Assembly (NCBI RefSeq): GCF_014359565.1
Contig: NZ_JACIZD010000020.1
Coordinates: 1-43,547, forward strand
DNA from: Immundisolibacter sp.
Lineage (GTDB): Bacteria; Pseudomonadota; Gammaproteobacteria; Immundisolibacterales; Immundisolibacteraceae
Length of the DNA stretch: 43,547 nt
Direction: 5' to 3'
The notes under the pieces: generated by a model
Told to the model about the DNA's origin: nothing
Seen by the model: the letters and a program-made list of their open reading frames with translations, nothing else
The model's database searches: none
Part shown: positions 30,507-35,300 of the stretch, one piece after another
Layout: every line of letters starts with the position of its first letter
Position numbering within the stretch: the first letter of the stretch is position 1
Translations under genes and position numbers: made by a program

Positions 30507-31169
30507 TCAGCCGCCGGTGGGGCTCAGGATGATCTCCACGCGGCGGTTCTGCTGGCGACCGTCGGCGGTTTCATTGGACGCGATGGGTTGGGTTTCGCCA
30601 TAACCAAGGGTGGTCATGCGGCTGCTGGCCACGCCGCGGCTGGCCAGATAGCTGGCGACGGCCTGGGCACGGCGCTCGGAAAGCTGCTGGTTGTAGCTGT
30701 CCGAGCCGGTGCTGTCGGTATGGCCGTTGATCTGCACCCGGGTGTCCTGGTATTCGGCGATGGTGGCGGCCACCTGATCCAGGGTGCTGTGGAAGGCGGG
30801 CGTGATCTGGGCGCTGTCGGTGGCGAAGGTGACGTGCCCCGGCATGTTCAGGATCACGTTATCGCCCTGGCGTGACACCTCCACGCCCGTGCCGGCCGTT
30901 TGCTGGCGCAGTTTTTCTTCCTGGTTCTGCATGTACTTGCCGACCCCGGCGCCGATGGCGGCACCCGCTGCCGCGCCGATACCGGCACGCTGGCCGCGGT
31001 CACCGCCGCTCACGCCGCCGAGCACCGCACCCGCGGCCGCGCCGATGGCGGCGCCCTTGCCGGTCTTGGTCATCTCGCGCTGGCCGGTTTCGGGGTTGGT
31101 GGCGCAGCCGGCGACCAGCAGGGCGACCAGCCCCGCGGCGGCCGGACCATGAAAGCGTGTCCTGAACAT
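30507..31169 (-). CDS. yiaD: OmpA-like lipoprotein (YiaD type)
   Basis: 220 aa. The signal peptide ends at lipobox LLVAGC (C22). Residues 38-80 are a glycine-zipper (GAAIGAAAGAVLGG and AGIGAAAGAAIGAGVG), and the C-terminal 110 residues are an OmpA peptidoglycan-binding domain (VTFATDSAQITP, INGHTDSTGSDSYNQQLSERRAQAVASYL, and the late QNRRVEI). It would tether the outer membrane to the cell wall. It is convergent with maf across 42 bp containing only a 5-bp-arm hairpin. The next gene upstream on the same strand is the histidine-rich membrane protein, 93 bp away. Confidence 0.93.
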   Translation of the reverse strand: MFRTRFHGPAAAGLVALLVAGCATNPETGQREMTKTGKGAAIGAAAGAVLGGVSGGDRGQRAGIGAAAGAAIGAGVGKYMQNQEEKLRQQTAGTGVEVSRQGDNVILNMPGHVTFATDSAQITPAFHSTLDQVAATIAEYQDTRVQINGHTDSTGSDSYNQQLSERRAQAVASYLASRGVASSRMTTLGYGETQPIASNETADGRQQNRRVEIILSPTGG

Positions 31170-31262: not shown

Positions 31263-31757
31263 TCACGGGCCGGGCCGATGCTGACCCGCGCGTTCCTCGA
31301 CAAGCCGCCCGCGGCGTGCACCGATGATGTGGGCCAGCACCAGCACTGGCAGCGCCAGTCCAAGAACCCAGTGGCTGACCGACACCCACGGGCGCGCCGT
31401 TTCGTCGGCCACGTAGTACAGCGCCCAGCCGCCAAGAGCCAGCACTGCGCAGGCGGCGAGCAGCACGAGCCCGCTGGGCCGCCGACGGCGAGGTCGCCAG
31501 GCAGGCCACACGTGCATCGGCAGCAGGGCGCCAAGACCCAACAGCGCCGGCAGGGCCAGCAGGCCGTGCAGGCGCATCAGCCAGGCTTCCAGCGGATGGT
31601 GTTCGGGGCCGAACGGACCCTCCACGCGCAGCCAGGTGTGCAGCACCAGCCAGGCGGCGCCGGTGAGCAGCAGCAGCAGGCAAAGGCCGTACACCGCGCG
31701 CCGGCCGAGCGGCCCGAGGCGCGGACCCAGCAGCGTGTAGCGTGGGCCGGGTTTCAT
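31263..31757 (-). CDS. Four-helix histidine-rich membrane protein, possible b-type cytochrome
   Basis: 164 aa with four hydrophobic helices at about 22-40, 59-82, 95-116 and 126-146 and short basic loops. Histidines lie in or at the ends of helices (H40, H64, H82, H129, H143); the 14-residue spacing of H129 and H143 on one helix resembles two-haem ligand patterns. No named family is recognised. It overlaps the apbE stop, forming the last gene of the FMN-binding/ApbE operon, so a membrane electron carrier feeding the flavoprotein is the simplest inference. An uncharacterised DUF protein without haem is the alternative. Confidence 0.6.
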   Translation of the reverse strand: MKPGPRYTLLGPRLGPLGRRAVYGLCLLLLLTGAAWLVLHTWLRVEGPFGPEHHPLEAWLMRLHGLLALPALLGLGALLPMHVWPAWRPRRRRPSGLVLLAACAVLALGGWALYYVADETARPWVSVSHWVLGLALPVLVLAHIIGARRGRLVEERAGQHRPGP

Positions 31758-32617
31758 GCGGCGGGCAGCAGCAGGGCCTGCGCCTGCAGGCGGCGCAGGA
31801 CGGGTTCGCAGGCGGCCGGATCGATGGCCACCGGCTTGGTCAGCGCGTCGGCGCGCAGGCAGGAACGGGCCAGCACGGTCACGCTGCCGGTCGCCGCCCA
31901 GGCGCGCCCGCGGCGCGGGTCGACCAGCGGCGAGCGCCAGGCCTGTCCGTGCCGGCGGCGGGTGTCCGCCACGCAGCTGGTCGCCACGGCGCCCTGCAAC
32001 AGCGGCGGCAGCAGCCGCAGCCGGGCCGGATCGGCCGGATCGCGCACGCCGATCCGGCGCGGCTCGTGGCCATAAAAACGCAGGTCACCGCCAGCGTTGA
32101 CACAGGCCTGCGGCACGCCGGCCCGGCGCAGGCTGGCGATGGCCTGATCCACCGCATAGCCCTTGGCGATGCCGCCCAGATCGATCAGCAGCGGGCGGGC
32201 GAAGCGCACCGTGCCGTCGGTGCCAAGGCGGATGTCGCGCCAGTCGCCGGTCGTTTCCGGGCTGTTCGACAATCCGGGCAGATACCCCCAGCGCACCAGT
32301 GTCGGCGCGATGGTCACGTCGAAGCGGCCATTCGTGAGCGCGCTCAGCCGGCAGGCTGCGCGCAGCACACGCCGCAGGTGCCCGCTCACCGGCACCGGGC
32401 CGGCATGCGCCGCGCGGTTCAGGCGCGACAGCTCGCTGTCCGGTTCGTGAAAGCTCATCCGGCTGTGTACCCGCGCCACGGCCCGAAAGGCGCGGTCGAT
32501 GGCCCGCGCAAGCTGCGCCGGCGGCAGGCCGGTCGCCTCGATGCCGACCAGCGTGCCCAGCCACGGCTGCGCCCGGCGCATCGTGCCGGTCAGCGGCCGG
32601 GCGAGCGGAGCATTCAC
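31754..32617 (-). CDS. apbE: FAD:protein FMN transferase (ApbE family)
   Basis: 287 aa. It attaches FMN covalently to a Thr of partner proteins. Key blocks: RVHSRMSFHEPDSELSRLN, LTNGRFDVTIAP, DLGGIAKGYAVDQA (146-157), VNAGGDLRFYG (173-183) and the metal-binding ADALTKPVA (256-264). The GTG start at 32617 overlaps the stop of the FMN-binding gene (GTGA). No lipoprotein signal is seen; the N-terminus lacks a hydrophobic segment, so either the true start differs or this ApbE acts before export. The substrate is almost certainly the preceding gene product, which has the SGAT motif. Confidence 0.9.
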   Translation of the reverse strand: MNAPLARPLTGTMRRAQPWLGTLVGIEATGLPPAQLARAIDRAFRAVARVHSRMSFHEPDSELSRLNRAAHAGPVPVSGHLRRVLRAACRLSALTNGRFDVTIAPTLVRWGYLPGLSNSPETTGDWRDIRLGTDGTVRFARPLLIDLGGIAKGYAVDQAIASLRRAGVPQACVNAGGDLRFYGHEPRRIGVRDPADPARLRLLPPLLQGAVATSCVADTRRRHGQAWRSPLVDPRRGRAWAATGSVTVLARSCLRADALTKPVAIDPAACEPVLRRLQAQALLLPAA

Positions 32618-33162
32618 GGCGCAGCCCCGAGCAGCGCGCGGTGGGTGGCCAGCAGGCGCCGCACGCCGTCGGTCAGGTGGCGGCAGGACAGCGTGGCGCC
32701 GCTGATGTTCTGGATGTCGCGCCCGAGCTTGACCGCATCGCTCGCGTCCTTGCCCAGGAACTGCGCCCGCCAGCGCGGCTGGCGCACCTGGTCGCCGTGC
32801 GTCTCGCGGTAATCGAGGATTTCCACGCCCGCCACCTGGCCGTCGGCCGTGACCGCCAGCGCGTAGGTGATGAACTCGTGCTTGCCGTAGACCTGATCCA
32901 CGAACAGGTGCCCAAGCAGCCTGTCCGCTGCAATGGCGCGCCACACCTTGGGCTTTCGGTTGACGACGCGGGTTCCGCTGGCCTGTTCGATGGCGCGCAC
33001 CTGTTCGGCGGTGAGTTCGACCGCTTCCGGGGCGTAGTCGGTCGCGGTCGGGAACAGCAGCCGCTGTGCCTGTTCGATGCTCAGGTATTGCGTGGCCTGC
33101 GCCGCCAGTGGCGTGACCAGCAGCGGGACGGCGAGCCACGGGGAGGGCAGCGGGCGGGACAT
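32614..33162 (-). CDS. FMN-binding domain protein, predicted ApbE substrate
   Basis: 182 aa. Signal peptide at about 1-23 (WLAVPLLVTPLAAQA). The FMN_bind domain occupies the C-terminal half: YALAVTADGQVAGVEILDYRETHGDQV, WRAQFLGKDASDAVKLGRDIQ then NISGATLSCRHLTDGV. The flavinylation motif D-x4-SGAT is present, with T157 the expected attachment site. The protein would carry FMN in the periplasm. It is the first gene of a three-gene operon with apbE and a His-rich membrane protein, and a Fur-like palindrome lies 21 bases upstream of its start. No good ribosome binding site is seen. Confidence 0.85.
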   Translation of the reverse strand: MSRPLPSPWLAVPLLVTPLAAQATQYLSIEQAQRLLFPTATDYAPEAVELTAEQVRAIEQASGTRVVNRKPKVWRAIAADRLLGHLFVDQVYGKHEFITYALAVTADGQVAGVEILDYRETHGDQVRQPRWRAQFLGKDASDAVKLGRDIQNISGATLSCRHLTDGVRRLLATHRALLGAAP

Positions 33163-33182
33163 GGCGGCTATGCTGCCCTTGA

Positions 33183-33197
33183 TGCGAATGATTCGCA
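33183..33197. promoter_or_regulatory. Fur-box-like palindrome
   Basis: TGCGAAT-G-ATTCGCA is a perfect 7-1-7 inverted repeat matching the Fur consensus TGATAATnATTATCA at 10 of 14 positions. It lies 21-35 bases before the FMN-binding gene start on the minus strand, where it would overlap the promoter region: a TTGACG lies about 26 bases further upstream on that strand. It also lies upstream of the divergent ccmG gene, at a greater distance. Confidence 0.5.
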
Positions 33198-33340
33198 ATG
33201 TTTGAGGCTTGATACGCGTCAAGCCCGGCCCGAAAGCACCGCTGCGGCGACCTGTGTTCGCGGCAAACCCGGACCGGCCGGCATAATTGCGCCCCGGCCG
33301 GCTCATGTCCCGCTCCTGTCGACAGATCAACCATCGCTTC

Positions 33341-33865
33341 ATGAAACTCTGGCGTCTGCTTCTCCTGCCCGCGCTGGCACTGCTGCTGGGCGCGCTGGCG
33401 CTCGGCCTGCGGCACGATCCGAAGCAGATTCCCTCGCCGCTGGTCGGCAAGCCGCTGCCGGCCATCGCGGGCGAGACACTGGACGGGCAGCCGGTCGATC
33501 TGGCCAAGGCCGGGCAGGGCAGGCCGCTGCTGATCAACGTGTGGGCCTCGTGGTGCGAGTCCTGCGCCGTGGAGCATCCGGTGGTGGTGGCGGCGGCACG
33601 GCAGTTCGGTGACCGGGTCGCCTTCATCGGCCTCAATTACCGGGACAAGCGCGAGCTGGGTGAGGCCTGGCTGGCGCAGCGCGGCAACGCCTACCGCTGG
33701 TCGTTCTTCGATCCCGAGGGCCGCGCCGGCATCGAACTTGGCGTGTACGGCGTCCCGGAGACCTTTTTCGTGGCGGCCGACGGCACGCTGCTGGCCAAGC
33801 ACGTCGGGCCGCTCGACGCGGACAGCCTGCGCGGCTACCTCAAGACGCTGTTCGGGGTGAGCTGA
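33341..33865 (+). CDS. ccmG: CcmG/DsbE thiol:disulfide interchange protein
   Basis: 174 aa periplasmic thioredoxin-fold protein held by an N-terminal helix (residues 5-24). The active site WASWCESC lies after PLLINV, with the cis-proline region VYGVPETFFV. It keeps apocytochrome c or CcmH cysteines reduced for haem attachment. I chose the ATG at 33341 because MKLWRLLLLPALALLLG is the usual family start; an ATG at 33305 is possible. CATAAT at 33282 could be its -10 box. First gene of ccmG-ccmH-ccmI. Confidence 0.93.
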   Translation: MKLWRLLLLPALALLLGALALGLRHDPKQIPSPLVGKPLPAIAGETLDGQPVDLAKAGQGRPLLINVWASWCESCAVEHPVVVAAARQFGDRVAFIGLNYRDKRELGEAWLAQRGNAYRWSFFDPEGRAGIELGVYGVPETFFVAADGTLLAKHVGPLDADSLRGYLKTLFGVS

Positions 33866-34251
33866 TGCGCGGACTTCTGATGGCGCTGCTGCTGCTGGCG
33901 CCGCTGGCGCGGGCCGAGGTGGTCAGCGAAGACCCGCAGCAGCGGCAGGTGCTCGAGATCGCCCAGCAACTGCGCTGCGCAGTGTGCCAGAACCAGTCGG
34001 TGGCGGAGTCGAATGCCGAGCTGGCGCAGGACATGCGCCGGCTCATCGCCGAGCAGCTTGCCGCCGGGCGCAGCGAGGCCGAGGTCATCGATTACTTCCG
34101 CGCCCGCTACGGCGATTTCGTCCTCATGCGCCCGCCGCGGCAGGGTTCGGGCGCTCCGCTGTGGTGGGCGCCGTGGGCGATCCTGGCGGCGGCCGGCGGC
34201 GGGGCCTTCATCTACCTGCGCAAGCGCCTGCGCGCTCAGGAGCGTTCGTGA
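33865..34251 (+). CDS. ccmH: Cytochrome c maturation protein CcmH (short form)
   Basis: 128 aa. Signal peptide MRGLLMALLLLAPLARA, then the conserved LRCAVCQNQSVAESNAELAQDMR with the redox CxxC, and one membrane helix at about 100-118. CcmH reduces apocytochrome c haem-binding cysteines in concert with CcmG and CcmF. This is the short form; the TPR part found fused in E. coli CcmH is encoded separately by the next gene. ATG overlaps the ccmG stop (TGATG) and its stop overlaps the ccmI GTG. Confidence 0.96.
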   Translation: MRGLLMALLLLAPLARAEVVSEDPQQRQVLEIAQQLRCAVCQNQSVAESNAELAQDMRRLIAEQLAAGRSEAEVIDYFRARYGDFVLMRPPRQGSGAPLWWAPWAILAAAGGGAFIYLRKRLRAQERS

Positions 34252-35300
34252 CAGCACTCGTTCTGACCGGCTTGGCGGTGCTGGCCGCGGTGGCCTGGCT
34301 GGTGCTGCGCCTGCCGTCGCCGGCAAGTGCCCCTGACACCCTGGCGACACGGCGCGCGCAGTTGCAGGCGAGCCTGGACGAGCTGGCCCGCGCCCGCTCC
34401 GACGGCGTGCTGGATGAGGCGAGCTTTGCCGACGAACAGCGTCGCCTGCAGGCGGACATGGCAGCCCTGGCGCAGCCGGCGCCGGCGCCGTCCGCATCAC
34501 GGCCCGACCGCACGCTGTGGCCGTTCGCGCTGGCGGTATTCATCCTGCTGCCGGCCGCGGCCGTGGGGTTGTATGGCTATTTGCAGGGTCCGTTCTGGCA
34601 GCAGATGGATGCCATGCGCGACGCGCCGAATGCCGCCGCGCCGGTCGATCCGGCGGCCATGGTGGCGCGGCTCGAGGCGCGTCTGGCCAAGGACGGCAGT
34701 GATCCCGAAGGCTGGCGGCGCCTGGGCCGCTCCTACGTCGTGCTCGGCCGCCCGGCCGACGCGCGGCGTGCCTACGACCGCGCGGCGCAGCTGGCGCCGG
34801 ACGACCTGACGCTGCTGGAGGGCTACGCGGACGCCGCCGAGCCCGGTGTGGCCCCGCCGCCCGGCATCGCGGCCATGATCGCCAGCGTCGAGCAGGGCAT
34901 CCTGGCCACGCCGGACGATCCGCGTGCCTGGGTGCGCGCCGGCTTTGCGCGCAGCATGCAGGGCGACCGCACCGGCGCCCGCGACGCCTACGCCCGTGCC
35001 CACGAACTGGACCCGCAGCGCCCGGAAGTGTTGGCCGCGTATGCTGCCAGCGAGTACGCCCTGAACCCGCAGCAACCCAGCGCGCGGGCGGTGGAACTGT
35101 ACGAGCGCCTGCTGAAGATCAATCCCGACAACGGCTCCGCGCTGTGGGTGCTCGGCCAGGCCGCGCAGCGTGCCGGCCAGCCGGCGCAGGCGCGCGACTA
35201 TTGGCAGCGCCTGCTGGGGCTGCTGCCGGCCGATTCGCCGATGCGGGCGCAGGTGCAGCGGGCGATCGATACGGTAGCGGGAGGCGCTGGGGCGCCGTAG
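34248..35300 (+). CDS. ccmI: Cytochrome c maturation protein CcmI (TPR apocytochrome chaperone)
   Basis: 350 aa. Two membrane helices (about 3-20 and 90-112) bracket a small cytoplasmic domain (RRAQLQASLDELARARSDGVLDEASFADEQRRLQADMAAL), followed by a periplasmic TPR region from about 135 on (WRRLGRSYVVLGRPADARRAYDRA, WVRAGFARSMQGDRTGARDAYARA and ALWVLGQAAQRAGQPAQARDYWQRLL). It binds the C-terminal helix of apocytochrome c. GTG start with AGGAG five bases upstream, overlapping ccmH by four bases. The stop is six bases from the convergent acvB stop. Confidence 0.93.
   Translation: MTALVLTGLAVLAAVAWLVLRLPSPASAPDTLATRRAQLQASLDELARARSDGVLDEASFADEQRRLQADMAALAQPAPAPSASRPDRTLWPFALAVFILLPAAAVGLYGYLQGPFWQQMDAMRDAPNAAAPVDPAAMVARLEARLAKDGSDPEGWRRLGRSYVVLGRPADARRAYDRAAQLAPDDLTLLEGYADAAEPGVAPPPGIAAMIASVEQGILATPDDPRAWVRAGFARSMQGDRTGARDAYARAHELDPQRPEVLAAYAASEYALNPQQPSARAVELYERLLKINPDNGSALWVLGQAAQRAGQPAQARDYWQRLLGLLPADSPMRAQVQRAIDTVAGGAGAP

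Follow-up and report, generated by a model that had tools for sequence, protein, structure and literature searches.

What does a block of three overlapping genes, encoding an FMN-binding protein, an FMN transferase and a small membrane protein, do for the cell, and does it serve iron? The question arises from a locus in a stretch of 43,547 nucleotides from Immundisolibacter sp., the whole of which is called the window here. The features of the locus are as follows.

32614..33162, minus strand: FMN_bind gene, 182 aa; PF04205, E 2.4e-10
31754..32617, minus strand: apbE gene (FAD:protein FMN transferase), 287 aa, GTG start; PF02424, E 3.2e-47
31263..31757, minus strand: membrane-protein gene, 164 aa; four helices, four conserved His, predicted two-haem cytochrome b-like protein
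33183..33197: Fur-box-like palindrome TGCGAATGATTCGCA, 21-35 nt upstream of the FMN_bind ATG
33209..33222: FNR/Anr-box-like site TTGATACGCGTCAA, matching at 9/10 positions and adjoining the Fur-like site
33341-35300, plus strand: ccmG (DsbE-like), ccmH and ccmI, for cytochrome c maturation; divergent, beginning 144 bases from the Fur-like site
30507-31169, minus strand: OmpA-like protein with a glycine zipper; same strand, 94 bases downstream, outside the conserved module

Conservation and spread of the three-gene module

Both junctions within the block, FMN_bind/apbE and apbE/membrane-protein gene, are 4-nt overlaps. The FMN_bind protein scores 41.4 bits against PF04205 (curated cut-off 22) and ApbE 161.7 bits against PF02424 (cut-off 25.6). 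The original prediction of these two proteins and of a four-helix membrane protein, encoded by overlapping genes, is borne out by Pfam for the first two and by the four helices of an AlphaFold model for the third. ApbE, the FMN_bind protein, a Fur-family protein and FeoB are each encoded once in the 3.09 Mb genome, the first two by the block.

When the class was searched with the membrane protein, a species of the same genus proved to have a copy with 95% identity, and more distant relatives were found too, most of them with the order FMN_bind-ApbE-membrane protein. Named genomes were also scanned with an FMN_bind alignment, and the best 80 of 214 loci were used, a choice by which the resulting rate may favour near relatives; these loci come from Beta-, Gamma- and Alphaproteobacteria, Verrucomicrobia and others. 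Of the best 80 of 214, 76 extend 1.6 kb or more downstream, and 71 of these 76 hold all three genes; conservation of the layout in related genomes had been named beforehand as a check. The reverse test, a phylum-wide scan of 398 genomes with the membrane-protein profile, avoids the bias towards near relatives. It gave 15 matches in 14 of the 398 genomes, with FMN_bind beside all 15; both FMN_bind and ApbE occur at 13 places, one being the window's own, and FMN_bind at the remaining two. As a conserved module, the block recurs in several phyla of two-membraned bacteria.

Some relatives of the membrane protein occur in other settings. One (L122 in genome G086, the same site as L007 and L024) is accompanied by a diverged convergent FMN_bind gene and another (L126, G713) by a diverged FMN_bind gene on the same strand, in both cases with no ApbE nearby. 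A close relative in G120 (L004/L026) has neither FMN_bind nor ApbE detected within 10 kb, and a neighbouring gene resembles by eye one for ergothioneine synthesis (EgtB-like). Two loci, L029 and L037, carry a tandem pair of FMN_bind genes ahead of apbE.

Most relatives have a fourth member. A DUF6662 gene lies directly upstream in 69 of the 77 loci with enough flank (from the best 80 of 214), and it heads the operon in L031:5098-5997 and most other scanned loci. The model of one DUF6662 member is a 12-strand barrel (pLDDT 91.6) resembling FapF and the COG4313 channel, so DUF6662 is predicted to be an outer-membrane barrel. It is absent beside the operon in the window's genus, and a search elsewhere in the window genome found none, an absence weakly supported since the same search gave none in control genomes either. 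In some plasmid-borne relatives its place is taken by a different hypothetical or porin-like gene. The literature searched yielded no mention of DUF6662.

The FMN-binding protein, ApbE and the membrane protein

The FMN_bind protein carries the flavinylation motif NISGATLS, in which T157 is the candidate residue for covalent FMN. SGAT or TGAT is present in 89/89 homologues examined. A Sec-type signal is predicted (AQA/TQYLS), and the N-termini of the relatives are likewise Sec-signal-like, with an A-x-A end followed by YLSxEQAQ. Together with the PF04205 match, these features agree with the exported, SGAT-bearing FMN-binding protein that had been proposed.

ApbE has the motifs GGIAKG, NAGGD and ADALTK; across 79 loci, NAGGD is kept in 76/79 and an ADALTK-like motif in 71/79. 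In the same 79 loci the PxLGT core of ApbE starts 7-62 nt (once 127) past the FMN_bind stop, too short a stretch for an export signal in 79/79, and the available N-terminal peptide has no hydrophobic stretch such as FMN_bind has. Characterised ApbEs are mostly exported lipoproteins; an exception in Klebsiella is cytoplasmic and serves a soluble fumarate reductase (PMC12052999). The signal peptide or lipobox that is usual, although not universal, for a periplasmic ApbE is not seen in the window ApbE. Since ApbE carries no export signal, the simple picture of flavinylation by a periplasmic ApbE does not follow. The pairing of a signal-less ApbE with an apparently exported substrate was unexpected. 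One explanation is that FMN is attached before the substrate is exported; another is an unrecognised export route for ApbE. It would be going rather far, and we consider it improbable, to see here a distinct and widespread class of flavin-linked iron reductase, with an unnamed four-His cytochrome, a cytoplasmic ApbE and flavin attached before Sec export.

The third gene is labelled 'hypothetical protein' in RefSeq, and plasmid copies under that label match the membrane-protein profile. The Pfam profile search gave matches below cut-off only, the best being to cytochrome b561 PF01292 (22.3 versus 30.1 bits), and the original prediction had not placed the protein in a recognised family. Few of its residues are fixed, and four histidines are among them: H64 and H82 in helix 2 (79/79 each among aligned homologues), and H129 and H143 in helix 4 (78/78 each). 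A MAFFT alignment of 71 sequences finds three of the four invariant and H143 kept in at least 90%. H40, where helix 1 ends, is a further candidate, conserved in 56/78. Loss of these histidines among homologues had been set beforehand as a test that could go against the prediction; the four proved nearly invariant.

The AlphaFold2 model of the membrane protein has a mean pLDDT of 91.8, with helices at 16-41, 55-87, 93-116 and 122-159. The loop charges fit a topology with the N- and C-termini inside. With both ends inside, the periplasmic side would be the nearer one for H64 and H129, the cytoplasmic side for H82 and H143. We infer the pairs H64-H129 and H82-H143, the spacing being 18 residues in helix 2 and 14 in helix 4. 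Structural alignment matched the model to cytochrome b6, the cytochrome b of hydrogenase-1, superoxide oxidase and FdnI at Z of about 10-11, in a list that also contains designed bundles and voltage sensors, and helical bundles reach Z 10-12 by chance. Foldseek with the model gave no match below 0.001; its top rows were FAT helical bundles, which are taken as chance. When PDB sequences were searched with the profile of the membrane protein, FdnI alone appeared, at E 0.3. The fixed histidines carry more weight than the fold, and the protein is predicted to be two-haem cytochrome b-like.

Putative Fur and FNR sites and iron-related neighbours

The original prediction placed a Fur-like box, a perfect 7-1-7 palindrome, just before the first start codon. 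The palindrome TGCGAAT-N-ATTCGCA at 33183-33197 is there, and the sister species has kept it. Palindromy as such was rejected as evidence: the window holds six perfect 7-1-7 palindromes, with 6.6 expected. Also discarded was a strict-consensus Fur site, as no site in the window lies within three mismatches. The palindrome itself differs from the Fur consensus TGATAATNATTATCA at 4/14 positions (10/14 match), which counts against the prediction, as does the intergenic region that both it and the FNR-like box share with the divergent ccmG; either site could serve ccmG for that reason. In favour of the prediction, TGNRAATNATTYNCA is found once in the 3.09 Mb genome, where about 0.03 is expected from base composition, and relatives lend support. 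Ahead of the operons of relatives, the Duganella type among them, stand sites that combine a TGCGAAT half with a canonical one (TGCGAAT/ATTATCA or TGCGAAT/ATTCTCA), for instance TGATAATGATTCGCA and TGCGAATCATTATCA. These hybrid sites are the best argument for reading TGCGAATGATTCGCA as a Fur site, and FeoB neighbours in relatives point the same way.

At L005, L006, L008 and L009 there is no Fur-like site just before FMN_bind. Most relatives' operons begin with DUF6662, and the region upstream of the first gene was therefore scanned instead. Fur-like sites (at least 14/19) lie upstream of 11/85 operons compared with 1.7% of tiled windows, and FNR-like sites of 10/87 compared with 1.4%; the loci are related, so both enrichments are overstated and their binomial values too optimistic. 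The FNR-like box TTGATACGCGTCAA is alone of its kind in the window, where 0.14 would be expected, matches at 9/10 positions in the sister species as well, and is accompanied in the genome by two FNR-type regulators with CxxCx5C. Ahead of feoA in the genome's feo locus is a near-consensus Fur site, TGATAATCGTTATCA. By the same criteria none of the genome's six TonB-receptor genes has one, which leaves the feo site as the sole basis for a Fur motif of this genome. A sigma-70 promoter scan returned none.

Fur control of the operon is a suggestive reading. On another one, the site is no target of Fur, or else acts on ccmG, and iron does not regulate the operon; this reading has some substance, though we do not favour it, and is compatible with other explanations of the operon. 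It draws on the four mismatched positions, the region common to ccmG and the TonB receptors lacking a site of such form, and has to be set against a site unique in the genome, 21 nt from the start codon, whose TGCGAAT half is paired with a canonical half in relatives.

Iron also appears among the neighbours. FeoB lies within about 6 kb in 19/80 loci (best 80 of 214), upstream in some and downstream in others, mostly in Thiobacillus-like relatives; the FeoB of the window genome is on another contig. Bacterioferritin is near 16/80 loci (best 80 of 214), and a porin O/P-like gene was seen in 25 of all loci examined.

A proposed electron path and its relation to known systems

We propose that the products of the operon form a small chain that carries electrons across the inner membrane. 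In it, the 164-aa protein would hold two b-type haems, one at H64/H129 near the periplasmic face and the other at H82/H143 near the cytoplasmic face. Electrons from membrane quinol would pass through it to FMN joined covalently by ApbE to T157 of the FMN_bind protein. The reduced flavin protein would then reduce ferric iron in the periplasm, yielding ferrous iron for FeoB. In most relatives, iron or its chelate would probably enter through the DUF6662 barrel of the same operon. Low iron, through Fur, and low oxygen, through an FNR-type regulator, probably raise expression. The same logic governs feo in enterobacteria, where Fur and FNR-type control respond to scarce iron and scarce oxygen.

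The whole explanation, from quinol through haem and covalent flavin to ferric iron that feeds Feo, is given a probability of roughly 0.5. In its support are the module in 71/76 loci (from the best 80 of 214) and 13/15 loci, the nearly invariant histidines, the resemblance to cytochrome b folds and the loop charges. A path from quinol through two haems into covalent flavin suggests itself naturally, and we hold it with considerable confidence; the module probably carries electrons from the cell membrane to a protein tagged with flavin outside it, an unnamed small haem protein being the link. Making iron soluble for uptake is most likely what the transfer serves, a role graded moderate and put at even or slightly better. 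Also in favour of the whole explanation are FeoB (19/80) and bacterioferritin (16/80) near the best 80 of 214 loci, the enrichment of Fur-like and FNR-like sites and, at the genome level, the single Fur, the single FeoB, the feoA site and the two FNR-type regulators. Against it, FeoB is in reach at only about a quarter of the best 80 of 214 loci.

Electrons taking the same route through haems and covalent flavin may alternatively reach an acceptor other than assimilated iron, through a different reductase of the periplasm or outer membrane, be it a peroxidase, a multicopper or other copper enzyme, or a respiratory step, which we treat as a possible but less expected outcome. Flavinylated proteins are described as serving many acceptors (PMC8238504). 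Some relatives have cytochrome c peroxidase upstream, or a multicopper oxidase and a ferritin-like gene downstream; the window operon is divergent from ccmGHI, and the FNR-like enrichment is much like the Fur-like one. Nevertheless, Fur-like sites recur upstream, and no recurrent reductase gene adjoins the module among the identified neighbours, the recurring ones being the outer-membrane barrel, porin, FeoB and bacterioferritin. A chain run in reverse, with the periplasmic flavin or haem taking electrons from superoxide or another donor and handing them to quinone as CybB does, would fit the presence of CybB (5oc0) among the fold matches at Z 10.4 and of PF01292 as the closest sequence family. 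We judge it very unlikely, as FMN_bind is beside the membrane protein in 15/15 loci found by the latter. The CybB of E. coli is a superoxide oxidase that functions with neither a flavin protein nor ApbE.

The proposed chain from quinol to covalent flavin and ferric iron has partial counterparts among described systems. According to predictions, about half of bacteria carry out extracytosolic flavinylation (PMC8238504). Knowledge of the membrane proteins feeding such systems is only partial, and our study adds a recurring unnamed one (14/398 genomes of the phylum-wide sample). This protein offers a clear His signature, and the three-gene layout is simple for heterologous work. DUF6662 is a candidate outer-membrane partner, and the site at which ApbE acts is a concrete puzzle. 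The combination had been suspected to be undescribed, and no description was found in the literature searched; the cluster may be listed without a label in the supplements of PMC8238504.

Several known systems share parts of the design. In the DUF4405 and FezC systems, for which haem b was shown, FezC being linked to iron and the ferrosome (PMC11334425), a His-bearing membrane protein is likewise encoded beside apbE (DUF4405). However, DUF4405 (PF14358) has six helices and pairs with Flavodoxin_4, whereas the window protein has four, pairs with FMN_bind and gives no DUF4405 match at E up to 1; weak DUF4405 similarity is seen in 21/71 of its relatives. The PepSY-like and MsrQ-like systems, as described in PMC8238504, resemble our proposal in passing electrons from a haem membrane protein to an ApbE-flavinylated extracytosolic protein, and PepSY-like clusters are Fur-repressed in two species and in some cases linked to iron transport (PMC8238504). 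Here the flavin acceptor is FMN_bind instead, and PepSY (PF03929, PF16357), DUF2271 and MsrQ-type domains have no match in the three window proteins at E up to 1. Simple membership in the PepSY-like, MsrQ-like or DUF4405 systems is not supported by these profile tests.

PF01292, which includes CybB, has four helices, as the model of the window protein does, and aligns over helices 3-4, with two His 14 residues apart. The window protein differs in that its helix 1 His is not invariant, its two other fixed His are both in helix 2, it sits beside FMN_bind, and its 22.3 bits fall below the cut-off of 30.1. RnfG and NqrC have an FMN_bind domain with an SGAT-type site, as here, yet the window FMN_bind protein is far below both cut-offs; as it is the only one of its genome, the genome has no NqrC or RnfG. 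In the P19/FTR1 clusters (PMC8238504), an FMN_bind protein similarly occurs within an iron-uptake gene cluster. The module described here differs from them in having no P19 or FTR1 among the identified neighbours, in bringing its own cytochrome candidate, and in residing in two-membraned hosts with a gene for an outer-membrane barrel.
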